Shown here piece after piece: positions 191 through 62,364 of a DNA stretch of 64,000 nt (position 1 is the stretch's first letter; every line of letters begins with the position of its first letter). This stretch comes from Paramacrobiotus metropolitanus (Eukaryota; Tardigrada; Eutardigrada; Parachela; Macrobiotidae): positions 1,240,001-1,304,000 of the forward strand of contig NW_026570235.1 in assembly GCF_019649055.1 (NCBI RefSeq), in the 5' to 3' direction. Position numbers and translations under genes: made by a program. Under the pieces are notes generated by a model. That model made no database searches. It was not told the origin of the DNA and was given only the letters and a program-made list of their open reading frames with translations.

Positions 191-7755
<7,565 letters not shown>

Positions 7756-11560: not shown

Positions 11561-13539
11561 CTACGTGTTCTGACGTCTTCCTCCGAAGCAGGACACCGAA
11601 TTGAAATAGCACAGGATGGACCGGCTGCGGACATCGCGTGGTGGAGTGCGTTTAATCGGCGGCAAGATGCTGTAATTGTCGGGATACGTCGCGGGACTCG
11701 GCACGCCGGCCTTGACAGCACTAGCGTCGTCCGCCGCTAATGACGCCATTAGTTTCATTTCTGCCATCTCCGGACCGGAATAGGCGGTGCGCCGGTCATA
11801 GACGGGGAAGAATGGGGCCTGTGCGACATACACAAGACATTAATGAATGAATGGCGCTTGTGGCGGAAGTGAACCAAGGTATGTTGCACGAGCTACCGGT
11901 ATTCCGATTAGGAAATGTCTCTAAATATAATTAGCGCCTGTTGTGTAATTATAGCTACCTATCCAGCGTATCGCTTATTGATGAGCACGCCTATTTCCCA
12001 AAATTGTTGATAAAGGATAATCGTTCAAACTAAACAAAAACGTGATGTTCAAAATTATGGAATACAACAAATATGCGCAACTCATTGATATTGTATTGGT
12101 TGTCGTTTAAGTATGTTATCCGCCAAATCGATATTATTTCGCCGGTTTTGACAACGTTTTAGGTGCGCCGCAGCAAAACTGATGGTGAGAAGAACGTTCT
12201 ATGACGTAGATGGCGGTCTTATCTATTCTTATAACAGTTTTAAGATTTAATTCCTTTTAAAGCGCAGAACAAAACTTTTTTGCATCTGTCTAAAATTAAG
12301 CACAACTAATTGCAGTGGGTATCCGTATTCAGAATATGGGGTATTTTGTATGGTATTATGATTACCAAATTTAGTGTTTCGGTTATGCGTAAGCGAACGT
12401 GGCTACCTTGTGATTTACGAAGAATTATTAGTTCGTAAATTTCCGTTTCATGAAGGAAGTACACTTAAACGTAACTAAGGCTAGGTTAATCCCTAAAGTT
12501 AATTATCACCCGATAGGTCAATTCGCAGTGCAAAGCGAATCTGATCTTTCTACGAAGCGATTACTGTACAATGTGTCCATGTTTCGCATAAACGGTAAAC
12601 TGCATTGTGTTCACAGAACTGTATTGTGTCAGCACTGTTTCCGTTCCACTCAAACCTATCCACATCCGCAAGGCGTCCAGCTGCGCCATTTGTGCTAAAT
12701 TGTTGGAGCAATAGCAAAATAAAAAAAAGCTAGGAGGTTCTAATTATGATATGGGCGGATGATTTTGCGGATCGATGTGAATCCGTGTTGGTTTCTGGGT
12801 ACATTTTGTTTTCCGGCTGATCCCTGCTGCATTTAGATTTAATCATAAAAATCTATTTCAGTCTTTTGGTGATGGATGTTACAGACAGTCTATAGCTTAA
12901 CGATCCCCGTTTCGCCTACGGCCAAGATCAACTTCAAATTTTACGGTCTTTAGAAATGGAATCAAAACTGGATAACCTGTAGGACAAGTTAGGTTAACAA
13001 CAAGGCTTTTTGTATCGTGGTAGTTTGGTTTGCGTAATGCTTATGCTGTACGATATGCAAGATGAATTTTTCGCGGCGTTTAAGATACAGTAAATCTTCG
13101 CAAAATTTCAACGGTTTTTTTTAAATTTCCAATCAGACGTAATACTTTTATCTTGATATTAATGTATTAATTCTTGTATCTAATTAAATTAAGATTAAGT
13201 TTCGAGTCTTCAAAACTTACACGTGTTACGCGTACGTAGTACGTAATTAACTCGCAAAGTAAAATAACAACGCAACCATTACAACCTCACTGATTTGACT
13301 AAACATCAGTCCTTTGGCGCCCACGTATATTTATGCTTATCAGTCGTATATATTACAAAAACGCTTTGCTTAAAATTAGTTTTTAAAATGGCGTAAACTA
13401 TGTGCTTAGTGCTTACCACATTTTCGCTCTGGTCGAAAAGGTCAGCGTCATCCAGTGCCGGCACCGGCACGGCAAAACACTGCATAACAACCATGAGGAT
13501 GGCGGACGCCAGGATAGCAATCAAACTGCTTTTGTCCAT
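11561..13539 (-). CDS. AstC: Allatostatin-C-like neuropeptide precursor (two exons)
   Basis: Exon 1 (13539-13417) encodes a 41-residue start with a clear signal peptide, MDKSSLIAILASAILMVVMQ, then CFAVPVPA, and ends at a strong donor GTG|GTAAGC. Exon 2 (11818-11561, acceptor CGCACAG|GCC) joins in phase 0 to give a 126-residue precursor, a usual size for this family. Near the end lies KR (97-98), then TPPRDVRSRSILCYFNSVSC, then F, GG and RR (122-123), then QNT. Allatostatin C peptides carry a CYFNxxSCF ring with two cysteines six residues apart, which is seen here (C111, C118). Cleavage after KR and before RR would free a 23-residue peptide, whose terminal glycine could be amidated. The GG before RR is unusual, since many family members end at the phenylalanine. 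Processing and function are inferred. An allatostatin-C-type receptor lies at 55986-59465. Confidence 0.8.
11819..13416 (-). other. Intron of the neuropeptide precursor
   Basis: About 1.6 kb between the signal-peptide exon and the peptide exon. Only short, unsupported open frames are visible. A further small in-phase coding exon cannot be excluded by eye. Confidence 0.5.
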
Positions 13540-15580
13540 AATTCAAATTGCGTATAAACCACACTTTCCTAATCGAAACTGAATGCTGCACAGAAATGGC
13601 GTGGGGAGACAACTGGTCGACAGCGGAAGTAACCACGTAATGTCCGCCAAAAATTACCTCTAATGTCAAAATGGCAACCCGAAGGCTTTAATATCACGGC
13701 ACAGCTGTGTAATGCGGAAAAGCGTACAAGAGCAATTATTGACGAAAGCGCGGAAATAACGTTACAAGCAAACAAATACTAATCATCTCCTTTGGATTCC
13801 ACTAACAAATAAGGACGGGGTGTTGTAACACAACAAGGAAGATCGGCCACTTATATACACACATTCACCGTGTCCATACCGGCAATTTCATTGACGCGCT
13901 GTGTATCACCGCGTCATCATTTTCCACTCGGCACAGGATTTGCCGGGTGTCACACCTCCTCGGCAACAGGTAATGTACGTACTTGCGCCCGCCGGAGATT
14001 ATTACACTGGGAATAACAATTTAACGCGGGAACAGTAGCTGTACCGGACACTACGTGCTAACTATAGTAACCCACTTCTTTTAGCACCCGGCGCTCCGCG
14101 TATAATCATTTCTGCTGAGCCAACGCTGATGACACACTTGTCATCCTGTTGCACGATGCTGCTGGGAGTTAAAGAAAGCCGGGTGTAAATGGGTTTTTAA
14201 TTATTGCTTCTAGTAAGCCGAAAACAGGGATGAGTGCTAATTACGTTCGTAGGCAGTGGATTTTAATTTCCTTGAGGTTGCTGTGTTAAGCAGCTTTTGG
14301 GCGGGGAATGTGTCGGGGTCAGATTTTGGGAAATGACTGTAACATGCGGTAGGGAATAGCTTTTCAGTACAATGAACAAAATTATTTTGTCCGCGTGTTA
14401 CGCGCAGCGGGACATGTATATAAACACCAGGGAGCGGAAGTGACTTACTCGTTACGACACCGGCTGTTCGATGTTGCTAATTGGACAGAGAGACACCAGC
14501 GTCATTTAGAAGACAACAAAGTTACCAGACAGTATCCCAGTTCGGCAAAACGTGCAAAAACATTGTCAATCAAAATAGCGAACAGGATGGCAGTTACCGG
14601 AGATTAACTTTTCACCTGTGCAACTTTGACCTTTTATAGTGATGCGCATGTTTGTAAATTGCGCTAAGCCTGGACATTTTTCCCTTGTAACATATTTATT
14701 TGGGAAACGGCTATCAGTCCTTAAATTCCAGTTGATAGCTCATACATAACAGATACGGAAAACCTGGGCTTTGAACTAGCATTGGTCAGCCATATCAGGT
14801 GATATTCTGTAGCTGTCGTTAAAGCAAACGTTACCGTACAATTATACAAATATGTATATGGCAGCGTTGGGAAACGAGGGCAGATAGAATTGTTTTTTTA
14901 ATTGATTGTTTTTTGATTGTTTTTCAATTTCCGAATTTTAAATTATGAAATAAAGTAATCAGGTTTGCCTTGTAGTTAATCGGGTGCTATTGCCTTTTGA
15001 ACTGAGTCCCAGATGCTCTGTAAAGAATAAAGCAAAACATGAAATACTTGAAATTCAGAACACGCTCAGAAATTTCGTAAAAAAGTGTAATTTCATCCTA
15101 ACTTGTTATCGTTTAATTATGCGTAATTATTATCCGAGATTGCGCAAAACACAGGAGCAATCAAACTTTGCAACGGTGATTGCTTTCTGATTCTCAAGTA
15201 GGCATTAACTTTGTGCATTACATGGTTGCTCCACAGCAGAGTAAATGTACAACTGTAGGAAGAATAATTGACATAAAGCGCATACTCGTAAAAAAAAAAT
15301 TTTTGGCACAACTTTAAAACACTTTTAAACTGACGACCAAGCCTGCAACAGAAACCGAACGTTTTTGCAAATTTAATGGGAAAACTTTGTCATACAATTT
15401 TACACACGTGTTATTCACTCCCGGATGACATGTCGCAATGACACAACTACAGAGCTGCTTAGAAAGCGAACATCACGTTTCATTTTAACGTGTATCCGTA
15501 AATCGTCATGCTGAAAATGAATAAAAATTGCTGATCAGCTGCTGAAATTAACAGTCGCGCCAGCCCTGTTGCATACATGA
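13540..15580. other. Intergenic region, no gene seen
   Basis: Promoter side of the neuropeptide gene and 3' flank of the acetylcholine receptor gene. The short open frames here show no family features. Confidence 0.4.
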
Positions 15581-18500: not shown

Positions 18501-20703
18501 GCACTTCTATTTAGAAGAACTAAATTCTTGACGTAACTACTGTAAAGTATACAAAAACTAAATTATACAAATAAATTATACAACGCATACAAATAAATAT
18601 CAACAACAACAACATTATTATACAAATAAATTAATATTATTACACAACTAAACTATACAACATCTAAATTATACAACTTGTACCTAAGGTCAACTTTTCT
18701 CCTGATTCAACCGGCAAACAGAATCCCAAAAGTGTGATGGAGCTTATTAAAGCACATGGAAGCACGAGATTGAAAACATAAAACAACACCCTTCGGCGAA
18801 TAATAATCGTAAAGGTCACATCCACCTACGAACAACCATGGTTTCTGATTTGAACTTTGATGAAATTAAATTTATACTGTCTAGCATAGATAATGCCATC
18901 TTACATATGGTTCAGGGCAGCATTCATAAGTGATAACGTTTCTTTGAGCAGGTACTCCTAAAAATGACTCTTGAAAACGTTTCGCCCATACGAAGTAAGG
19001 GTAAACGTGTTTTTTACCAATGAGTTCCCATTCGCCATTCTTCATGAATCCGGATAGATCTGCTTCGTTCTTCTTCAGCTGCAGATCGATCCTATTGCCG
19101 TCGTAACTCCAGGAGCCGAATTTGAGCGTACAATGCTGTTCGTCAAATGGAAACCATTTTATGTTAATCTTGCAAGTGCTCTTGAAGATCCCGGGAGGTA
19201 TGTACACGCAGTCACCCGTACTGTACACCACCACATTAGAATGAAATGTGTTCTCGAAGCGCTCATCAGCACTGCAACCACGAATGCACAATATCATTTG
19301 AGTATAAAGAATATTGCTCATTTTCAGAATTATCGTATAAGATATACATACTCTGTACAGATACTGTACTATACTCTTATTTAATTGCTCTTTACCAACC
19401 TGTTGTACAGCAGGACATCCGGCTTCCAAACCTTGTCCGGATGCACCCGTATGTCGGATAATCCCCCATATTCGCTGCTGTTCCATTTCAGATTGTAGTC
19501 ATTCCACTCCTGTATAAACATAAACATAAAATATTTTCAAAGTTTTTGCACAAGCATCTTTAGAAAATGTTTGCAGTTCGGTAACATTTTTAGAGGCTCC
19601 AGACGTATGCGACATTGCGGCCAAACTGATACTGGCTGCATTACTGGTTAAAAAAACGGTGGTTTGATTTGCAGAGATATTGTGTGTTTTTTTACTGTTG
19701 TTTTACTGCGTATTCCTTGTTCACTTTCATCTAAAAATACCACATTAGGGTTTAAAAATTGTCCTTTAATTTCAAAGCTATCACTGTTGAAAGTAATTAG
19801 AAGTTAGAACAGAGTTTAACCAGCTTTACCAAATCCCATTCAGTCTTCACTTATTTACTATTCCGGAGTCTCATAAATTCTGCCATTTAAAATTAGAGTA
19901 ATTCAGTAACAACAGCGCAGACGGACATAGTGACGTACAGTATTCCAAAGAGTGATTCAGTTATTCAATGAATTTTAAAAAAATTGTATATACACTAATT
20001 ATCCATCCTGTAATTATTTCCACGGCAAAGAAAAGGCTTAATTTGCTGTTCCCGCATAAAAATTAATCCAGCCCATGATATTTAGTATCTTCAAAAAGAT
20101 TCAACTAATTTTTACATCGATAACAAAAAATTACTATTCAACTTAATTTGCCCAATATCCGCTTATCTTATTTAGCATAATGTTAGTTATTAGGGTGGCT
20201 GCTTGCTGCTAATTTAACTGCAAACGGAACATACATCTACTACAGCAAGGCCTATTATCGTCTGTACAAATACTGCAATCGTAATGCACGCTGCAGCATT
20301 TCTTGCAAAAAGTAAAAGGTTTTTCCAAGGGGCCGGCATAAATTTGAATGTTACAAAAGCACGAACCATTGTAATCCAGAGGGTGGTGGAGAGAAGCTGA
20401 TTTCTTTCATCCTGCAAGATTGCTCTGATCATTACTAGCAGATATATCAACTTATCAAGGCACTGCGGATGAACTTTCGATAAAGAAAAAAACGATACGT
20501 ATGTAAATTACAAGGGGTCAAACGCAAATGCGCAGTCAAGTATGATCGACATACCACATCCATAATTTGCTGTAATGTTAAACCGAAATGAACTGGAAGA
20601 GCGAGGGACTCATTAAGGATGGGCCGTTCCATGTTACTGTAATTCGACCCCGGTCCGAAAAAACTGTTTAAAAGACGCTTTTCGTGATATCCTTGCAGAG
20701 AAT
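15581..20703 (-). CDS. Nicotinic acetylcholine receptor, alpha-type subunit (5' incomplete)
   Basis: Ligand-gated cation channel subunit of the Cys-loop family. Exons on the minus strand: 20703-20555, 20411-20367, 19509-19400, 19271-19018, 18957-18905, 18825-18684, 18388-18302, 18185-18145, 18085-18017, 17577-17266, 15909-15806 and 15689-15581. The ligand domain shows [19 protein letters not shown], the Cys-loop ([15 protein letters not shown]) and the vicinal cysteines of an alpha subunit (YECCPEPY). M1 follows, then M2 with [21 protein letters not shown]3, a cytoplasmic loop ([13 protein letters not shown] onward), the amphipathic helix ([15 protein letters not shown]) and M4 ([14 protein letters not shown]), ending SAPHFQV at the stop 15581-15583. 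Borders keep phase throughout. A 60-nt intron at 18958-19017 has no stop and can be misread as a loop insertion. The signal-peptide exon lies upstream of 20703 and was not found. The alpha7-like class is suggested by ECCPEPY. Confidence 0.93.
18520..18690. repeat. AT-rich degenerate tandem repeat in receptor intron
   Basis: Repeated words of the type AAATTATACAA and ATACAAATAAATT, with a short CAACAACAACAA run at about 18600, inside the intron before the M2 exon. Confidence 0.6.
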
Positions 20704-24044: not shown

Positions 24045-25754
24045 TCAGTCCGAGTCACTGGAGTAGCTGCTGGAGGAGCTGCTACTGCTCCGATGCCCGT
24101 AACCATGTCCGCCATGATGGTGGCGATGTCCCATTGCGTAGCCAAGGCCTGCTCCTCCTAGCCCAGCCGCCGCTCCCAATCCCAAACCAGGCAGTAGGCC
24201 TCCTCCACCGCCGTGCGCATGATGACCATAACCAGGTCCATAACGATGGCCCCCTCCACCGATCAAGCTGCCTACCGTTCCCAGCAGGCTTCCCGTACCT
24301 ATACCGCTGCCGCTGCCGCCCATCGGTCCAAACATTCCGTACTGTTTACGACCTTTATGTTTCATTTTCTTCTTCATTCCGGGATAGAATAGTGGCGCGG
24401 CTTTTGCCGCCAATCCTCCCAACGCGCCCAAAGCTGCTCCGCTCTACATGTATTCAATTTACCAACACCAAAACTTATTTATGCACCAGCTTCAAAAATC
24501 AGATGCAGCACCATTTATTGTGACAGATTTAACAAACCACAAACAAACCAAAGATTTAACAAACCATTTACTGTGACACTTACACAAACTTACCGTAAGC
24601 AAACTGGCCATCGAACTTCCTGGCGTAGTGGAGCGCTGATTTTGCGGCATTCTTCCATACTCCGGTGCAGTTGTCTGGTAAGCGCCGTTCGGTGGGGCAC
24701 TGGACGATGGAAATCCTGAGTATGAGGCCGGCATCGGAGGAAATCCTGACTGAGAATTTCCGTATAACGGCGCCTGAGGTGGCAAAGAATTCGAAGAATT
24801 CTAAATTCACAAAAAAATGGAGAAATTTACAATATTATCGCATAACATTTCAAGAGGTAACTGCGTGACCGGCTAGGTAATAGCATGTCAATTTGAACGA
24901 ATTTGCTGACTGTCAACTTCAACAAAAACCACCAAATCCAGTCAAATAATATTCCAGTATAAGAAAAAAACCATTCGCAATACGAAAACTGTACGAACAG
25001 TACGGGCAGCGCTTGACTATCCCCAGACAGAAACAATATTTTAACTGTAGCCTGTAAGTAATCTGAAGCAGCAAATACACGTCTCTTGCCAACCGTTCTT
25101 TAAGCACAGTATTAAAATTACTAGCAGTATGTATCTAAACTTCTCCTTCGCACAAGTGGAATAACTGAATGTTTTTTAAACTTGTACCTGGGCTGTTTGA
25201 GCTCCACCGGGAAATTCTAAACGAAGAACATTCACCGTTACGCTGCCATCCATGGCGATGGCACGGATCTGTGTAGGGTCCATCCGGTGTGGAAATTCAC
25301 AAAAATGCTGATTATTTAATGCAATCTGTAAAAAATCATCAGTGACGTTTAACACGATAACCTAACATTCAGAAATCTGAAAAAAAATTCACCATGAAAG
25401 CTCGTCTCTGCACGAGGATGAAAATCTGGAAGGCGTCCATTTTATTCATTGGACAGGATGAATAGTCCATTGGCGTTCCCCATTGGTTCCGTTGAATAGT
25501 ATTAACGGAGAGGCGAGAATTGGGCGACAATAAGAATCCCAGATGGAGTGCAACATCGTCTCTGGGATTCACCGATGGACCCATCTGTAGGTTGACAGCG
25601 AATCTGAAAGCGGAAGCAAGACATGAATCTCTGTCTCACAGACGCACTGTGGTCATACGGCGCACCCTCGGCTATCAAAGGGAACAAATCCTTCTATGAC
25701 GAACATCCCGTAATCAGGTAATGTACCAGGAATCTCGTACACGCAGGGCACAGT
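24045..25754 (-). CDS. Galectin-domain protein with Gly/His/Ser-rich C-terminal tail (5' incomplete)
   Basis: Exons 25754-25666, 25603-25393, 25325-25188, 24800-24594 and 24443-24045 join in phase. The first three make a beta-galactoside-lectin (galectin) fold: FVIEGFVPFDSRG, FAVNLQMGPS, RDDVALHLGF, SVNTIQRNQWG, ALNNQHFCEFPHR, AIAMDGSVTVNVLRLEF. Usual galectins keep H-NPR, N, W and E-R for sugar contact. Here the HxNPR and E-R positions are not kept (HLGFL and WGTPMDY), so binding may be altered. The domain is followed by a Pro/Ser/Gln-rich linker and a final exon of 133 codons: an alanine/glycine stretch, a lysine-rich segment (KKKMKHKGRK), long glycine-rich repeats with His clusters (GHRHHHGGHGYGH) and an eight-serine run ending SYSSDSD. 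The start methionine was not located; the gene begins upstream of 25754. No signal peptide is seen. Confidence 0.8.
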
Positions 25755-26803: not shown

Positions 26804-27814
26804 TCATTCACTCCTGTTTTTGCGCTTTCGACGAGCACTTCCTGATTCTGAATTCGGCAGGCGTAAAACTTCTACGGACAAATTAGCCTCTGCAATCTTA
26901 TCCCGTTTACTGACAAACTGGTTGCCGAGAATATAGTAGCGCCACGGCTTAGCCGCCCATTCGGCGCCGTATGAATCAATTCCGATCCGCGGCGCGGACA
27001 CTACCGTGATCGGCTGCTGGGTAGTGTCATCTTCGAGCCATAATTCCCGTTTTTCCGTCAAATCCCGCCCATTAAATACAGCTGTCGTGATGTTGAAGGC
27101 CTGGCATAACCGTCCTGGGCCATTGCACAACTGCAGCAGTTTAACACGATCACCGTTTTTACGGAAATTCCGAATGGCTTCCACACCGTCCAGCGGCTCG
27201 ATAGCGCGAATTAGCACTCCAGCACCGGGTTCTAAACGAATCTGCTTTAATTATTTAATTTTAAATGCGCAAGTAGGCCTTCGTACCGAGAGCGCTGATG
27301 TTGAAGCAGTCATACATGCCGTAAACAAAATAAACATACGCGGTCCCTGCTTGTGCAAACATGGCTGCATTGCGCTTAGTTTTCCCGTTGAAGGTATGGG
27401 ATGCCCGATCCGTTTCCCCGGGATATGCTGTTAATAAATTCGACTATAAATTTAAGTTCACGTCTGACGTCTCCACCAAACGAGTGCATAATATATCTGC
27501 AAACGAGTGATTTTACCTTCGGTTTCGACGATCTTCCCTTTGATTAGAGTGCCACTTTCGAGCTGCCTGACCAGAATTTTCCCTAGCAGCGCCTGTGCAA
27601 GGGTCTGACAAGGAACTGCGTAAAACACAGAAGTTAAAGCTATTCGCTGCACAGCGGATCTCATCGCCGGACGGTCCGCACAAGCAGCTGCTGATGGCGT
27701 TATAGATAGTGACTCCTCCACAGGTGACTGAGGCGAGGGATCCACTGTCGGAAGAGAAGAAAAATAGTAGGGAGACGAAACGAAAGCGCCAATTTCACTG
27801 AGGCTTCGTTCCAT
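26804..27814 (-). CDS. MPG: 3-methyladenine DNA glycosylase (alkyladenine glycosylase)
   Basis: Base-excision repair enzyme that removes alkylated purines and hypoxanthine. Exon 1 (27814 to about 27527) carries an N-terminal Ser/Pro-rich region, then [14 protein letters not shown] and GKIVETE with the catalytic glutamate. Exon 2 (about 27431-27287) continues [38 protein letters not shown]. Exon 3 (27241-26804) gives [48 protein letters not shown], and ends with a basic tail [13 protein letters not shown]. All core motifs are present. The junction of exons 2 and 3 is odd: the only GT-AG pair (27286-27242, 45 nt) leaves the two exons one base out of frame, whereas a GC donor at 27278 would restore it. 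This may be a non-canonical intron, a sequence error or a disabling change. Confidence 0.9.
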
Positions 27815-45246: not shown

Positions 45247-47469
45247 TCAAATACTCGCTTTCCGCAGAATAGCGACCACTGTATCAAAACGTAATAAAGA
45301 CTCTTGAAAGACATTAGTCGGCCGCAGGTTTCGCCGAAATCCTACGAATCCATACAAACTGTTAATAACTTGAAATCCTTGCGTAAGTAAGTGGGGAACA
45401 TATTTGCTCTCGGCAATTATGTGCGTGAATGGCGCATCTGACGTAATATTATACGTACGCAGATCCACTGTTTCGGTTTTGTTGTATCTACAAAAAGCCC
45501 AAATACGAGTGTGTACTGAAGCTATCGGTGCCAAGTAAAACAACGATTTTTAAATAAACGTACATCCATTTGTCGTTCATATGAAGAAACCGGCTCACTC
45601 CGTTCTGACAACTGAAGTTATCCAGAAATAAGTGAACACTTTTTGTAGAACTTTCAATTTGATGTAGCTCGTAAAGCGCATCTCCTCCCCGATAATTCCA
45701 CGATGATATAAACAAGAACATGGCTGCTGCCAAAAGGTTGACCAAAAGATGCGCCTTGCAAAGAAGGGAGGAAAATCTGTTCGTAGAGCTTCTGAAATTA
45801 AATTTCCACGACTTAATGAAGACTAGCAAAGAAAACCTGACCGGAAACAACTTACATTCGAGCGCATGCAACAGCCGCGCTGAGATTGAAAACTGGTACT
45901 ATGTAAATGACGAAGCGCAGCTCTTTGTGTGGCAAAAATGAGTATGAGAAGACAAAAAGCAAGAAGGGTGCAATTAAGTTCAGGATGTTCCTGTTTTTTA
46001 AAGTTCCATACAAAGATAATGGAAGGCTTGCAAGCGAAAGTCTTGGAATCACGGAGTAAAAGTACCATGCGAATGGAGAAGTCTGAAAAAAATCAGTTTA
46101 ATAATTCTGTCTAAACACCCTGATGCCACTGGCTAAGAATGTCCAAAACTTGGTTGACGGACAGCTTACACCCCAGTTTGAGCTCTGATTCTTGACAGTG
46201 TTAAACCAAAGGACTTCCCCTTCAGGCCATACTGGTCGTCCCCAAAAATATGAATCCACGAGAAAGGTTAAGAGGAGACTGGCAGCTACCGCTTTACCAC
46301 CTTCGACGAAACCCCTCATAAACGAAATCTTCTTCCGGAGCAATGAAGAAAGGAGCATAGGGCCAAACAGTAAACACAATTCCGATCGGAAAATAACAGT
46401 GGCAAATGCGCCGAAGCGAATTGTTTTCGTTACTTGATCATCAATCCAGAAGGCTGTCGCTAAGATCACTAAGCCACAACCAATAGAAAAGAAATTACGT
46501 TGAGGGTTTATTGACACAGTAATATTTAATATCAACGTAAAAATACTTAATCAAAAATTTACAAACTTACTGTCCCATTTTGTCAATGTACGACATTCAA
46601 CAAAATGAAACTCTAAAACTACCCGGACGCCGGGAAGAAACAACAATAAAAAAAATAGTTTCGCAAGTAGGAATAGGAAAAATACAGCATTACGAAGGGA
46701 CAGTGTATATGCAGTATACTATATTATAAATATCTGCAAAACTGTAAATAAACAAAACTTAAAAAAGCGTGCAGAAAGCGGAGACACAGAAATTTTACCT
46801 AGAGGAAGTGCAAAAATGTTTGCAAGTGGACGAGTTGCATAAAACAGGAAATGGAACTGCGAAGCGGTTATTAGGGCTGTCCACAGTGCAACGTCCTGAC
46901 CGAAATGCTTCCTAATAATTCTGAGCAATACTTTGAAAGAGCAGATCACAAGGAATCCCAGTGAACATCGTGCTGCAAACAGCAGATCCATATTACGAAA
47001 TAAATAAGCCTTTTTCGGCAAACATTTTTTCCCTCAGACTCCGCGTACCAAAAGCGAGCGCCGCGACTTTGTTGAAATGCAGGCAGTCAACCAGAAGAAA
47101 TTTAGGAAGCAGACTTATGGATGCCACGGAAAACGCTCCAATAAAAGTTCTCGGAACAGGTCCTGGAAATTCTTGATGATCGTACTGCAACAGAAACACG
47201 TGAAGGGAGAATCACTTCGCTTTGCGACAGATCTGATTATTCTAATATTTACCTACCGCCGAAATATTAAATCCATGAAAAAGAATATCGTGGATAGCCT
47301 GTGTGTTGAAGCTCTCCTCCACTTTAGTCCATGGGCAAACAGCAAGGTGAATTCCAAATGCGCTCATGAATATCAACTCCGGCAGGAGCCACGTTCTTTG
47401 GATGTGCTGCTTCTGCTTCGGTTTTGACGCGGGCTTTGCTAACTTGCGCGTCTCTGAGCTTTTCATCAT
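45247..47469 (-). CDS. ALG12: ALG12 mannosyltransferase (alpha-1,6, ER N-glycan assembly)
   Basis: Multi-pass ER enzyme of glycosyltransferase family 22 that adds the eighth mannose, from dolichol-P-mannose, to the lipid-linked oligosaccharide. Exon 1 (47469 to about 47257) shows [20 protein letters not shown] with the conserved VEESFN. Next come [19 protein letters not shown] (about 47190-46985), [13 protein letters not shown] and [18 protein letters not shown] (about 46985-46795), [20 protein letters not shown] through [20 protein letters not shown] (about 46520-46130), [20 protein letters not shown] (about 46060-45855), a final transmembrane and lumenal region, and [15 protein letters not shown] before the stop at 45247. 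HKELRF and [12 protein letters not shown] are strong ALG12 markers. No defects seen. Confidence 0.92.
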
Positions 47470-48128: not shown

Positions 48129-48633
48129 TGTCAAACTGCTTAACTTAAAAATATTGAAAATTCCAGTAAAAAAATGGGCGTAAATCCAGTTAATGGTGCA
48201 TCTTGAATTTTGCCACAAGCAGCACTTTGTCATCGCACGCGGTCTAGTACTCAAAAGCCAAAAATGGTAAATGAATCGGAAAACAAAAAGCACAACAGTG
48301 GAGCGGAACTGGAAACGCACCAGCCGATCAGCTGTCGGGTAGTCGTACAGTATGCCGACCGAACCGACTGCCACTGCCAGACTGACGAAAGAGATTATTT
48401 CATTTATAATTTTGATAATCTTTTTCAAAATTTACAATCAGCGTTTCTCGGTCAGTTCTCAGTCTCATTTCAAAATCATTTTTCTGCTGCTGAAGAAAGA
48501 TCCATTTCTGTTGTTTCATGCGGCACATGATTTGATCGGACATTCGAAATACACCTGTTTCGAAAAACTAAGGCCACGAGCATATTAATTCTTACAGAGC
48601 CGCTCTGAAAGGTATCCGACAAGGACCATACGA

Positions 48634-50808
48634 TTGTTCAGAACAGTTTTGGATTTGGGAATGGCAGATACGGATGCATCCCGCCGAGGTCGTTTGGAAT
48701 ACTCGGGGAAGCACATTCTGGCTCCCATGGTGCGAATGGGAACACTACCATTCCGATCCTTATGTTTGGACTATGGAGCCGATATTGTTTATTCTGAAGA
48801 GATTGTGGATATAAAATTCCTTCAATCAAAGCGAACTGTTAACACTGCCTTGAATACGGTGGACTACACCATTCCCAAGGAGCTTATCTTTCGAACTCAT
48901 CCTTGTGAACATTCCAGTGTGGTACTGCAGATCGGCACTTCGAACAGCGATCAAGCAGTACAAGTTGCTAGAATGGTCGAGAACGATATTGCGGGGCTGG
49001 ATATTAATATGGGCTGCCCTAAGGATTATTCGGTCCGAGGTGGTATGGGGGCCGCACTGCTGAAGACCCCTGATGTTGCAGAGGATATTTTAAGGAGAAT
49101 TCGGGCTGAGTTTAAGAAGCCTTTGACTTGCAAGATAAGGCTGTTTCATAACATGCAGGACAGCGTTAATTTTGCCAAGCGGATGGAAGCAACTGGGATT
49201 GAGGCAATTGCTGTTCATGGTCGTACAAAAGAGGTACTTTAATTTTTAATGGTAGTGTTCTCGGCTCGGCATTTAATTACTGTACTTCTAATTCTGTACA
49301 TTTGACTTTAGAGCTGCAAATTTTGAAAGCTGTCTTATACTAGCGCAGTAACGACAGCCACATTTCTGGTAGGGTAAAAGTCAGGTTTTAAAAAAAAATT
49401 ATTACATAGTTAAACTTTTAAACTTGAATCTTTGAATGCCGACCGGCATGTTATTACGACGCCTTTCGATATGCATATACAAATCGGAGCGTTCGTAAAT
49501 AGACCCATAATTTGAGTACGTTATATTTGTTAGCTGATGCTTCCCCGACATATGGCAATGCTGTCTAAAATTGAAATTTTTCTCCAAACGAAGTGTTTAT
49601 TGAAATTAATAATATTCATTGTTTGTCATACATTTCAAGTGCGGAACTTTATGCTGTTTGAGAGTTCGTCAGAGCCTTTTGCCGGAATTGGTGCTACCTT
49701 TTGTGTCGTTGTTTTTCTTTGTTTAATACTTTATTGAAATTATCGCTGGGGTATTAATTGGCATTTTACAGGTTTCTTTCGTTTGAATACTATGTTAATC
49801 AGCAATCGGTAATAGTTTTAAAATGTCTAGTGAGGCAGCTTATTAATGTAAAAGTTGCATAGGTTAAAAATATTATTACGATACATGTTTTGAATCTGTG
49901 ATACCGAACAAATTTTATGTACATGCTGCGTTAGATGTTTTGCGTATTTCGTAGAGTCTGTTGCTGCAAATTAGTGTTTTCACCAGTCAGCTATATACTT
50001 TTACTTTTCTTAAGATAGTCGCGGGTTTACATTAGATGGTTTTGCTTATTAGGAAAGACCAAGTCATAAAAACAACAGTGCCGCCATCCGAGCCATTGCG
50101 CAAGCGGTATCGATTCCCGTAATCGCGAACGGCGGCTCTTCTGACATTCGCTGCTATAACGATTTGGAAAAATTCCGATTGGAATGTGGGGCGTCTTCAG
50201 TAATGGTGGCGCGGAGTGTACAAACCAATCCTTCCATCTTTCGTCGCGAAGGTTTGCTAAGCCGAGAGCAAATGATCTCCGATTTTCTTCGAAAATCTAT
50301 CGATTTTGATATTCCTTTTCGTAATGCCAAGTATGGAGTACAGCATCTCTTTGGGGACACCAGCACCGAATTCGGTCAGACTTTTTTGGCCACTCGGGAT
50401 TATCCTGATATGTGTGAGGTCTTCGGCTTTGAAGATTATTATGCACAGAAACATGTGTCGACACCAGAAAAAGATCGTCTCGTCGTGGAGAAAAAATCGT
50501 GTTCCCTGAAGAGAGATCGGGAAGAAGACATCGTAGTGGAAGAAGTCGACTACAATCCCATATCTAAAAAGCTGAAAAAGGCGCTGAATACTTTTACGCC
50601 CAAAAGCATTTTACTGGAACACTGCAAGAAGCATTCCATCGCTCCGGCGCAATACAGTTTTACCAGTACCGGCAAGACGTTCTGTGGTAGTGTCCTGGTT
50701 ATGGGAAAGACTTTTATTAGTACGGTGCCGCACAGAACTAAGAAAGATGCCGAACAAGCGGCAACAGTAGTCGCGCTTCGGCATATTATGCCGGAATTCA
50801 GTTTGTAA
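48634..50808 (+). CDS. DUS2: tRNA-dihydrouridine(20) synthase, DUS2
   Basis: FMN enzyme that reduces uridine-20 in the D-loop of cytosolic tRNA. Exon 1 (48634-49233) shows LAPMVRMGTLPFRSLCLDYG, DIVYSEEIVDIKFLQSKR, DINMGCPKDYSVRGGMGAAL with the conserved cysteine and Lys/Ser phosphate loop, TCKIRLF and AIAVHGRTKE. Exon 2 (50053-50808, after an 819-nt intron) continues ERPSHKNNSAAIRAIAQAVS, VIANGG, SSVMVARSVQTNPSIFRREG. It ends with a double-stranded-RNA-binding domain (CKKHSIAPAQYSFTS to AATVVALRHIM), as in animal DUS2. Two start codons are possible: MFRTVLDLG at 48634 or MADTDASRRG at 48661. The catalytic domain and the added RNA-binding domain are both complete. Confidence 0.94.
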
Positions 50809-55985: not shown

Positions 55986-58900
55986 TTATACAGCATCGTC
56001 TTTTTCGCCCAGCGGAACACTGGCCATAGTGGTAGTGGTAACCGTAGTGGGAATGTTCCCGAAGTCCGTCAGAGATCCGTTACGGTAGCGGATCTCGGTC
56101 GGCGGTGGAGCCAGCTTGTTCGTTCCGTTGGTCGTCGACTTGCGTTTCTGTGACCTTTTCAAAAAACTGGTAATCTCCAGCTTCTCATCATTGATGTGCA
56201 TAGTCGGGCTCTCATCGTCATCCTCGTCATTATGCTGTTGAAAGCGCCGGCGAATGGAATTGCGAGAGCGTGCAAAAATGTTACTGTGCTGATCGGGGAC
56301 GGAAGTGCGCTCAGGCTGTAGCTGGTCCATGTTGTGACCGCCGCGGCCCCAACAACAGGCGGCTGCGAAGGACTTTTTAAAGTTCTCGCTCAGCATGGCG
56401 TACAAAATGGGATTGACGCTGCTGTTGGTGTAGCAGAGCGCTTGCAGTATGGTGCTTGTATAAATAATCGCATTACGTGCGGCATTTTTGCCGTCGTTGA
56501 CCGCTGCTGTTGCCGCAGCCGGCTTCGCAGAATCACAGGACGGTTCGGGATTAAGATAACTCGTAATCGACGATATGTAAACAAGCAACACCTGCCAGAC
56601 CCTGCAACAACAACGCACCACTCAGGCGATGAAATAAACGTGTGACCACGCGCTGGCCATCTGTGCTACAAATTTACTCGAGAGTTTACATGGATAGCTA
56701 TTACATCACCTTTATACTTCTAATCTGGGCGCAGCACGCAATGATGTAATGCATCGCAGAAAATCGCAATTTTAACCTTTGTTACAATTTTGACACATGC
56801 AAAAACGCCCGCTTATTGTATCCATAATTTCAGTAATTAATGCGATAAACGCGAAAGTATTATCAGTTATCACACGTGCAGTCGTGTACCCACCAATAAG
56901 GCAGCCAGCAGATAACGTACGCCGACACCACGGCTAACACCATAATTGTTACGCGCCGGTGTGACCTTCGTCGGCCATCGCTGGTGGCCTGTGAATTTTT
57001 CGGGCCGAGTGTTTTCAGTTTGCGTAACACCATGGAATAAAAGGCAATGATGAGAAGCAGCGGAAAGGTGAAGCCCAGTACCAGGCAGTACAATGTGAAG
57101 GCTTGCATGCCGTCAATGTACTCGCCTCCCGGCCACGCAATGTGACACGTCCCATTCGATTCGCCTTCGGATTCCAGTTTGGCGTAGATGAATACCGGTA
57201 TCACTGCGAAGAAAACGATGGCGTTGGATTCTTTTGGGTGCGAGTTCAACAGCGTTTTTACCAGAGCAGCATTTTGTGTAAATCAAGGAATTCGAAGGCA
57301 TTGGTCAACTGTTTTAATTTAACCTTTACAGTACGTACTCCAGGAATCTAACGATTAATTTGATCTAATGATGCGCATTTTTGCTAATTAACCTGATGAA
57401 ATGCATTTACGGTGTATGTTACATGTATTGCAAAATGTTACAATACTTGTTCATAAAAATTAACGGATACGGCGAAAATTTTGTAGTGCCAAAAGCAATC
57501 TTAGCAGTAATATCAGGTGCTCCGTGGAATTACATTATTCCTGCTTATATCTGTATGTGCCGATTAACCAATTTTCCACATGGACACATAGGAGGCGCCG
57601 CGTTGCGCAAGGTAAGACTGATCGATACGAGACAATGCATGTCGATATCTGTTCGTGTCCCGGTCGCAAATAAGCGCATTTAACATTGATCGTCCTAGTA
57701 CATTCGTGACCTTTTTTAAAGACAAATCATAGCTAGGAGGATCTACTTTTTTCTTCTCTCTGTGGAAGACCAGAAGGACTGGGAAAGACCTTTGCTTAGA
57801 GCGTATTTTTTTTCTGGAGAATCTTACTCAGAGTTGCCGACGTGAGCCACGTTATGGCGCAGACGACTTTGGCGGCTTTGGCAGTGCGGTATTTATTGCT
57901 GCGGATCGGATGACTGCAAGGCAAAATGCATCATCATCAACAGTGTTCTACCAGGCATACGATGGGGCTACTTTAATTGATGAGAACATCAACATCTGGA
58001 ATGCCGACGGACGGTGCACGTGTTGAGCCAAACAGTGCAGAAAGAGAGAGAAAAACTGATCCAAGTGTGTACTCACCAAACAGCAACTGTAAAAAAATAC
58101 AACAGTGTCTTCTTAAGAATGCCGTTGTTAAACTGTTTGCCGGTAGTACTTGGAAATTTATTTCATAGCTAAGCTGAATAGAAAATAAAAAGTAACCATG
58201 TCGATGACAACGTACAATATCGATCAGCCGACATAACCATGAGGAAGAATGAGGACGCAAACTGATTAACCGTTGTCATTGTGAAGAAGATCCGACAATA
58301 AATATCACCAAAGATCCAACGGTCTTTGAAGGTTGTGACCATTACCAAGGGTAAATTTAGCAGGAACGATAAATCAGCCAAGGCCAGTGACAGGATGAAA
58401 AAATTTGTCACAGTGTGCATTTTGGAGAAGCGCCATACGACATAGATCTGCAACATTTCATCCTTATCACAGAACGTAATTATTGTTTTTGCACGAGAAA
58501 ATTTTTACACGCTAAAAGCTTAAAACCTAACTGTCACAGATTTTAAGAATTTGCTGTCGCATTTGTTTTCGTGAGCCGTGAACGGAAATTTACAAGTTAA
58601 GATCACCCAAAATTTTTATAACAAATTTTGTTTGATAACCCGAATTTTACTTGATAACAAAATGGTAAAAGGCTACTCCGCCCATAAAAAAACTGTTGGT
58701 TTGAACTCGAAAGTGTGCACTTGATTTGCAAATAACTGGATGCTTTGCTACGCTATCCAAAACAATTCACTAGTCAAGCATTATACCATTTTAAAACTAA
58801 GATACAGTACTCGTGCTAATACTACGCCCTTTTTTCAGGTTGTTCAGATATTTTCAAATATTCACTTCAAATCATACTTTTAATCAACATATGCTCGAAA

Positions 58901-59465
58901 ATGTTCTCATATTCGAATTTTTGCATATTGTTTCGTGGCAACTTTTATGTTTTTAAATTTTCGATCAAAGGATGCACGGTTAATTTTTGTTACTAGATCT
59001 AGAAAGACATTTTGCATAAAGCATACCATTTTATTCATAGTTGCTTATAACTTGTAAGAAAGGCAGTATTGCGGTCAAAGCATTCTAGCGCACAGAATGA
59101 TAATAATTATAATTACAAATTACAAACACGGGAATCGCATCACCTGCTGTTAGCGTAAATGTCTATATATTTATCTACTCAAGAGCGGTGAATACCGCGG
59201 TCACTGCGCTTTAAAAGTTATTATTAATCAAGCAACTAATAGACACTGCACGCTGTTATCTTACCACGAGGCTATTCCCACACATGCCCACAACCCAAAT
59301 AATTCCATAATACAGGTTGACCATAAACAGCAGGGATCCCGGCTGGGTGTCATAATAAGCCGCGGTGTTATTGCCGAAGTCGCTACCGGCTGAACAGTTG
59401 CCGGTAGCTGGATACAGTGTACGATTGATTACGTAAGTGTCCAGCGGAGCCGTCATGTTGGGCAT
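55986..59465 (-). CDS. AstC-R: Allatostatin-C / somatostatin-type G-protein-coupled receptor
   Basis: Class A peptide receptor. Exon 1 (59465-59265) has an N-terminus with several NxT/S sites and TM1 (YYGIIWVVGMCGNSLV). Exon 2 (58447 to about 58211) has IYVVWRFSKMHTVTNFFILS, LALADLSFLLNLPLVMVTTF, FGDIYCRIFFTMTTVNQFAS and ADRY. Exon 3 (57913-57828) has HPIRSNKYRTAKAAKVVCAI. Exon 4 (57203-56894) has the rest of TM4, TM5 and RRSHRRVTIMVLAVVSAYVI with CWLPYW. Exon 5 (56601-55986) has VLLVYISSI, CYTNSSVNPILYAMLSENFK and a Ser-rich tail. These motifs match the allatostatin-C receptor group, homologous to vertebrate somatostatin receptors. The join after DRY needs a weak donor. The tail ends DDAV, which could bind PDZ domains. 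Its predicted ligand type is encoded at 11561-13539. Confidence 0.9.
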
Positions 59466-62364
59466 CAGTGTGGGGAAGACTTCCTGTTATGAATTTGTTT
59501 TAATCGTTATCCCCATATGTAAAACATGGTAAAGGTTTCCCTCTATCGGTATGCGGAATGAAAAGTGGAATAAACCTTTTACCGAATCATCCGCCATCCA
59601 TATTTAATACGGCATGCATACATGACGGCGTATCAATTTTCTGTATTTTAGCCGATAATTCGCCCAATCGGCAAACCGAAATACAAAAACGTGGCTATCA
59701 CCATCACGTATAATAGAAGGAAAATTAGCTTAATGAAGACGGTGTTAAAAGCCGTAAATTTGCCGCATGACCGTCAACACACGTTATACGTCGGAGACTC
59801 ACCTTTAGCCGTTAACGAGGGCCGGATGCCGGTAATGAGATCAGTGTTTCCTGATCACTTTATCCAATATATAAAACGTGATGACGGGCACCGTGTGTGT
59901 GTGATGTGTGTGTGACAACACAACGTAAACGGGGACGGTGTTATAAAACCCGGGACAGAGAGAGCGCGAGTGCCGATCCGCTCAAACTAATCAGAATATC
60001 CGCAAGGGATACAACAGCGCCGGGACTCGTTCAAGTAGCCGGGCTATCAGCACGATTTACATATACGGGGAAAACGATGGAATTTGTCCTGGGAATATGA
60101 AGCTGGCGGAGGCCGGGGCGCCGGATGTGTTAATGTGCAGGCGGCTGGCGTTGCCGTTGCTTACAATGTATACAGAGTCCGGTTTACTTTGATATTTTTT
60201 ATACGTGGAAATTTTCACGGGATTAGGTCAATACCAATGAGGCGATCACTGAGAAGACCGATGATGGGAAACGGCAGGTTGCAACGTCTGTAAAAAGTCA
60301 GAATAACAGTGGGCCATTGGAAAAGGTCACCGGGTGTATACACAGTAGCTTTCGCCTTAGTAACATTGTCATCATTTCCCCTGAGGACAGACTTATATAC
60401 ACTCCCACATGGACACCAGGTTGCTCTATTATTTTTAGGCCGTACTAACAAAACTTTGGTTAAAATCCGTGTCCAGTGTCACGACACTGAACCTACCCAG
60501 TGGATGATCTATCCGAGCTATATACAGTAGTGGAGTATTCTCTTCCCGAGACGTTATTCAAGAGGTGGGAAAGGAATAGGCCAAATGAATGAAAGACGAA
60601 CAGTGCAAACACACGCAGTAACAGTACAGCTCCACATTCCCAACGAATTTCCTGAAATTGATGCATATTGTACGGGGGGGAGGACACACCACACTGTGCG
60701 TTGTCCATGGGTAGACAAAACTGTTTACACTAGCAATCAATATAGTCCCAAAAGAAAGAAAAACAATGCATTGTAATTGCTATTTTTTGCGTTAAGTGCA
60801 AACGCACTGGTCAGGACTGCAAGTGCTTATGGTAAAATATTCATAGGTTCTGGATCTCTGCTCCATTAATTATTCGCAAATGCCGGTGTAAAATGCATCG
60901 ATTTGGAAGTACAATTGTGTGTACCGACCACATACTGCACACATCTGCCGGTTTCGCTTTAACGCTGCAGCGGATGCGTGCATGTTCCACGGATCACGTA
61001 TGAAAATTGTGAAATTAAAAGCCAAATCTGAATACTTAAATTTAACTCAAAATGTTTTTTATCCAGTCGAGATCAGAATTTAAATTATTTTACATTCTGA
61101 AACTGCTGCAAACTGCGGCGATTGGAATATTCGAAATAAAAACTATACTCACAGCAACAGCGGCATACGAAAGTCAGTGCCTAAAAATTACTCGTGGTTG
61201 CTGCATTCTGAGGTACTCGTATTTACCAGAAACTTCAATTCAATTCAAATGGACACTTCCGCGTTCATTTATTTATTAACATTTCTACAAAACGGTATAT
61301 GTATAAAAAATGTTTTACACGCTCTTTAATGCTATCCAGGTGTGAAACAATATAGAGGCTACTCTTGCCATAATAATGCAGTTATAAGATTCAAGTTAAG
61401 ATAACCGACTACGCTTTAACGAATGTTAAACATAAAATAGCTCCATCTTTGATTCCATTGAAACCCGTTTTACTTGCGAGTACCTATTTTGTGACCTTAG
61501 AATTTTTCTAGTCATTATGCAGAAATGCTTAATGTAGGTATAAATGTCAGGATTGCAAATATTTCACCTGACATGAGTAATTTTGAAATAAATAGCATTT
61601 ACTTTTGTAAGTGTTCGCAGTGCAAAATTCAAGAAAACAAAGTACAGTCATGTAGAAAACTTAATTTCTTTTATGTCCTGTGGTGATAATATCCAGTTTT
61701 GGACTGGTCCAGATACCTTTTCCTGTCGTTTACAAACAAACAGCATGTCGTATCGAGTCGTACAACACACTGGTAATTTTTGCGCAAGATCTAAATTCAT
61801 TTCGATCCGGAATTTTAAAGTTCTACAAGAATTCTAGACGGTATGCAAGGTGATTCAATAATATACAATTTATAACCATAAAATTAGAGAGCTTCATGCA
61901 AAGTAACGCAGAATTTTGGCTGTATATAACGGCATCCGATATTCAAAACATACCTAAATTATGCTTTTTCATCGTCTCCTATTTTTAGCAGGACTGCAGT
62001 AACACATACAATCTACGTCGAGTACAAAAAAGTACTTAAGCGCCACCGGCAAACAAAGAAGTCCATTGATAAACCCCACGTCCAACGAACACACTACTAA
62101 AGCATGCAACATCCGACTATCACTCACCCTTTTAACCCAGCAGTATGAATTCTAGTTGCTGTGTATTTGTTCTTGGACCGTGCCTCACAATTAACGGGAC
62201 AATATGAAAACCGTTAAAGTAAAACCCGAGGGGCACTTCCGGTCTGATTGGGTATTACCCGGAGCACAATAAAGAAAAATTTACAGCTATAAAATAAAAA
62301 GCAAAGTAGCACGGAAAAATAAAAATGCCGGCGTTAGTGTTCAGAATGCGGACAGTCTGGACGT
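59466..62364. other. Upstream and intergenic region, no gene seen
   Basis: Contains the receptor promoter region. Several open frames of 60-80 codons (for example 59691-59915, 60215-60451) show no signal peptide or domain and were not called. Confidence 0.35.

Follow-up and report, generated by a model that had tools for sequence, protein, structure and literature searches.

A 64,000-nucleotide stretch of the genome of the eutardigrade Paramacrobiotus metropolitanus (RefSeq assembly GCF_019649055.1, contig NW_026570235.1, positions 1,240,001 to 1,304,000; hereafter the window) holds what is very probably a gene for a neuropeptide of the allatostatin C (AST-C) type, one of at least two in this species. 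A rhodopsin-type receptor gene of the somatostatin/AST-C kind is found on the same strand. That such a receptor gene shares the window with a putative AST-C-type ligand gene is the new observation presented here. The window is part of contig C15 of an assembly of 169.8 Mb in 533 contigs, which was searched for relatives of both genes. Positions refer to the window unless a contig is named.

The ligand gene occupies the minus strand. Its first exon (13417 to 13539) contains the ATG, a putative signal peptide and the start of the propeptide (MDKSSLIAILASAILMVVMQCFA|VPVP...) and ends at a phase 0 donor, gtaagc. The second exon (11561 to 11818) follows a cag acceptor and encodes the rest of the propeptide, a KR pair, TPPRDVRSR, SILCYFNSVSCF, GG, RR and QNT before a TAG stop. 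The putative intron (11819 to 13416, 1598 bases, GT...AG, phase 0) might contain an additional small internal exon, and the joining of the two exons by splicing is itself predicted from the sequence. Read as 13539-13417 plus 11818-11561, they encode a precursor of 126 residues. An earlier, sequence-only reading of this DNA had proposed a signal exon and a peptide exon joining in phase to a precursor of this length, with CYFNSVSCF between KR and RR. Both its coordinates and its frame were confirmed, and the dibasic pairs were found at residues 97-98 (KR) and 122-123 (RR), giving the layout KR-TPPRDVRSR-SILCYFNSVSCF-GG-RR-QNT. One more internal RR precedes the KR. A hydrophobic core marks the N-terminus, and cleavage may occur at CFA|VP, as judged by a hand rule rather than by a signal-peptide program. 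The exons have G+C contents of 0.53 and 0.59, compared with 0.37 in the intron and 0.43 and 0.40 in the flanks, and the G+C content at third codon positions (GC3) of the coding sequence is 0.67. A possible TATA box, TATATAAG, lies approximately 310 bases upstream of the ATG (13850 to 13857, minus strand). It is a consensus match only, and the octamer has one further copy on the minus strand of the window, at 60399.

The ring of the peptide, CYFNSVSCF, has the features of the AST-C (PISCF-type) family: two cysteines six residues apart, FN inside the ring and Phe after the second Cys. There is a single peptide copy, located near the C-terminus of a secretory-type precursor (the signal peptide again by hand rule) and flanked on either side by basic cleavage sites. 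We assign the gene to the AST-C type because of this ring, the single copy towards the C-terminus, the dibasic flanks, the similarly built second gene, and the somatostatin/AST-C-type receptors encoded in the genome. The same identity had been proposed in the sequence-only reading, and these lines of evidence agree with it. The gene is probably functional. A genome search with the Pfam Allatostatin profile (PF05953), which we take to model AST-A and not AST-C, gave no match, and control genomes were likewise without one.

The ring motif was also used to search the genome. The codon pattern CxFNxxxCF has 81 matches, 16 of which carry a stop within the nine codons, and the reversed pattern, used as a control, has 49. 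Because of this background the motif by itself means little. The surrounding frame was read at another 16 of the 81 matches; the sequence xSCF occurs at 11 of the 81, and 10 of these were among the 16. Two of the 16 places, the window gene and position 939861 of contig C52, combine a long open frame with flanking basic cleavage sites. The other 14 places (on C66, C116, C4 (two), C128, C102, C104, C7, C26, C59, C19, C20, C41 and C205) were rejected because a secretory frame was absent or because cleavage sites did not flank the motif on each side. As the pattern demands a fixed F and N and a ring free of introns, further AST-C genes could escape it.

At the C52 gene the frame ends KK-SSNVVCFFNPVSCF-G-RR-QLRSRIRPRYLRLPPLVQPT, with the ring CFFNPVSCF. 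Upstream, an open frame begins at an ATG, has a hydrophobic N-terminal part and closes with a phase 0 GTAAGT donor. The peptide exon opens with a gcag acceptor, and the intron, read by hand, is 370 bases long. The two genes thus seem to share a layout of signal exon, phase 0 intron and peptide exon, the ring being placed late in the last of these. The single Gly before RR in the C52 precursor is a standard signal for a Phe-amide. Against the reading of the window gene as one of at least two AST-C-type genes, the window precursor has no family match in Pfam, and it aligns with the C52 precursor only weakly (E 0.4, 29% identity over 52 residues); the proposed link between the two genes is drawn from the ring, the tail and the gene layout. 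Exon 2 of the window gene finds itself and one weak relative in the genome, and that relative is on C52.

The receptor gene lies at 55986 to 59465 on the minus strand. In the gene model it has six exons (59465-59265, 58447-58216, 58086-58077, 57913-57828, 57203-56894 and 56601-55986) and encodes 484 residues, with five introns that are all GT...AG. The third exon is a putative microexon of 10 bases (58077 to 58086), which immediately follows the DRY motif and is bounded as cag|TTGCTGTTTG|gtgagt. The PDB and genome searches used an earlier model, in which one acceptor was placed 27 bases early and added 9 residues to TM4; this is corrected in the final model. The Pfam family is 7tm_1 (E 7e-60). 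Among the best 60 of 251 PDB sequences matched, SSTR2 ranks first (207 bits, E 5e-60) and the top kappa-opioid receptor scores 164 bits (E 4e-47), so that within the rhodopsin-type receptors the best matches are to somatostatin receptors. There is no insect AST-C receptor among these 60. AST-C receptors are well known to resemble somatostatin receptors (PMC11959706), and for this reason the predicted product of the window's receptor gene is of the right type for an AST-C peptide.

The genome contains further receptor genes of this kind. The search listed 83 matches, with 108 of 441 candidates scored, and a gene was called somatostatin/AST-C-type from identity over several exons together with the NQF stretch of TM3; the other matches were left unclassified. 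By this measure there are at least four such genes, one in the window and one each on C26, C18 and C87, and contig C215 carries a partial copy. The joined exon pieces of the C26 and C87 genes rank somatostatin receptors first in PDB, and the C18 gene resembles that of the window. PDB searches with one exon at a time from C26, C87 and C18 had too little sequence for a decision, and two of them count against the assignment: one 88-residue exon of C18 matches oxytocin receptors best, and weakly (E 2.6e-6), and one exon of C87 has no PDB match at 1e-8. Matches on C14, C47 and C16 were left out, as the exons examined lack the NQF stretch. In all four genes NQF is kept and the Asp of the somatostatin receptor motif VDGINQF is replaced by Thr or Ser. 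This Asp is tied to the Trp-Lys pair of somatostatin, and its replacement suits a putative ligand without that pair.

Two other features of the receptor genes were observed. The partial copy on C215 (2600-6500) is closely related to the C26 gene and is located on a small contig; it could be an allele, a recent duplicate or an assembly artefact. Three of the four genes (window, C18 and C87) seem to have a tiny exon of 10, 15 or 19 bases at the DRY motif, with splice sites placed by hand. Their 3' ends fall within a Cys codon, the same in all three, and their 5' ends differ. The C26 gene is without the extra intron at this motif. The pattern resembles the outcome of repeated gain of introns or of intron sliding.

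Among the peptides compared, the closest ring is that of lobster AST-CC, GNGDGRLYWRCYFNAVSCF (PMC6008092), with CYFN-x-VSCF in common and 8 of the 9 positions identical. The lobster peptide has another N-terminal arm and ends at Phe as a free acid, whereas the window peptide has GG after the Phe. AST-CCC, SYWKQCAFNAVSCFamide (PMC6008092), has a ring of equal size and shares 7 of the 9 ring positions. It is amidated directly after Phe, as predicted for the C52 peptide; for the window peptide a Gly-amide is predicted. Lobster AST-C, pQIRYHQCYFNPISCF (PMC6008092), also has an equal ring size, Phe after the second Cys and 7 of 9 ring positions in common. Compared with it, the window peptide lacks the ring Pro and the N-terminal Gln and has the extra GG, while the C52 peptide has the Pro. 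Ring identities of 8 versus 7 of 9 would not decide between orthology to AST-CC and to AST-CCC. AST-C is reportedly duplicated in tardigrades (Hypsibius and Ramazzottius; Koziol 2018), and the precursors of these two genera are probably orthologues of the window gene. The exact ring CYFNSVSCF was not found in the literature searched, from which most subscription papers were absent, and neither was a title that reports this gene or linkage between ligand and receptor genes.

At the C-terminal end of the peptide, Gly-Gly stands between the ring Phe and RR. AST-C peptides often end at this Phe, as acid or amide; lobster AST-C, AST-CC and AST-CCC all end at Phe, with an amide in AST-CCC only (PMC6008092). 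The codons at this end are TTC GGA GGA AGA CGT. Together with the single Gly of the C52 relative, they suggest that the extra Gly is most simply a duplicated GGA codon. A Gly-Gly before a dibasic site is also present in adipokinetic hormone (AKH), an unrelated peptide family, in two moths. The AKH precursors of Ostrinia nubilalis and Chrysoteuchia culmella read ...SSWGGKR, and mass spectrometry identified the product as a WG-amide (PMC9573411). Because the moth WGGKR precursors yield WG-amide, the window peptide likely ends, by analogy, in Cys-Phe-Gly-amide. Nematocin, an extended peptide of the vasopressin type, is a parallel for the C-terminal extension of a ring peptide (PMC7181382). The sequence-only reading had called the GG end unusual. 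Within the limited literature compared this is so for the AST-C family, since the end differs from the Phe ends of the three lobster peptides and no other GG end was encountered; it is not unusual as chemistry, as the moth hormones show the same route from GG and a dibasic site to a Gly-amide.

A less probable outcome, although one to be taken seriously, is that the same gene yields a free acid (...CFGG or ...CFG), or a product trimmed to ...CF as in the non-amidated AST-C and AST-CC, the glycines being functionless. One observation tells in that direction and against the amide: in both moths an unamidated ...WGGK product is present as well (PMC9573411). The Gly-amide would be one of several possible mature ends. 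On the other side, Gly-Gly before a dibasic site does give a Gly-amide in the moths (PMC9573411), and the C52 gene, with a single Gly before RR, has a clean amidation signal. The tardigrade genome also has 15 matches to the copper monooxygenases, the class that holds the amidating enzyme, with that enzyme and its relatives counted together.

The extended N-terminal arm TPPRDVRSR, noted in the sequence-only reading, is present after KR in the precursor and may be absent from the mature peptide. Monobasic cleavage follows a rule by which a further basic residue stands at P4, P6 or P8. For Arg107, directly before SILC, the P6 residue is an Arg; for Arg105, both P4 and P8 are basic. Because its basic P6 fits the rule, Arg107 is a possible monobasic site at which the arm may be removed, and the mature peptide may start with either SILC... 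or TPPR...

The proposed processing with a Gly-amide end would proceed as follows. The two exons would be spliced and the precursor would enter the secretory pathway, where the two cysteines would form a disulfide ring. A convertase would cut at RR and at KR or Arg107. A carboxypeptidase would take off RR to leave ...CFGG, and an amidating enzyme would convert the last Gly to the amide, giving Cys-Phe-Gly-amide. The target of the peptide would be at least one of the somatostatin/AST-C-type receptors, of which the genome has four or more.

The ligand and receptor genes are on the same contig and the same strand, approximately 42.4 kb apart. With two ligand and four receptor genes placed at random and contig ends ignored, the chance that one pair or more falls this near is about 0.4%, or 0.5% with the partial copy; the figure was computed after the pair had been seen and would rise with a larger receptor count. 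This proximity might suggest that the two form a cognate pair whose linkage has been retained, which we regard as unlikely. Other genes lie between them, namely those for a neurotransmitter-gated ion channel (18881-19498), a methylpurine-DNA glycosylase (26804-27250), an Alg9-like mannosyltransferase (46098-46550) and a dihydrouridine synthase with a dsRNA-binding motif (48589-50808, of which 48589-49242 is by reading only). Contig C52, which carries the second ligand gene, has no receptor match among the 83 listed. Many families of peptide receptors exist, moreover, and one close pair somewhere is unsurprising when it is examined post hoc. The nearby receptor is therefore a candidate partner and no more. 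As a lead, it is the part most worth following, and the ligand gene is mostly ordinary. A more elaborate scenario, which we consider quite improbable, is that one AST-C paralogue gained a C-terminal Gly and became a Phe-Gly-amide, the other remaining a Phe-amide, that different receptors among the four or more discriminate between the two ends, and that the gene for the Gly-amide receptor has remained no farther than 42 kb from that of its ligand.

That the ligand gene is a pseudogene or a chance frame with a ring-like motif is highly improbable: ring codons are common by chance, as the 81 matches against 49 for the reversed control indicate, but a signal exon, in-phase splice sites, dibasic flanks, a high GC3, the complete lack of stops and a like-built second gene all argue against it.

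Tardigrades are close relatives of arthropods, and their AST-C genes are relevant to the timing of origin of the arthropod set of AST-C, AST-CC and AST-CCC. Amidation has been suggested to direct AST-C peptides towards particular receptors (PMC6008092), and the receptor for AST-CCC in a crab is reported to have eluded identification (PMC11959706). A pair of tardigrade peptides whose predicted ends differ, together with at least four receptors, would make a small natural test. The linkage would be notable if it were kept in other tardigrades; otherwise it is routine annotation.

Elsewhere in the window, the frames at 774-1268 and 6660-7190 resemble portions of a kinase that has a HisRS-like end and that we take to be of the GCN2 type. 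The first has no Pfam match, and the second matches HGTP_anticodon2 only, under the cut-off (E 1.2e-4). A Gly-rich frame on the minus strand (24045-24443) contains runs rich in His and in Ser and matches no Pfam family. In the genome as a whole, a CAHS query has 20 matches, the best with an E-value of 3e-69 and 65% identity; CAHS proteins mark eutardigrades.
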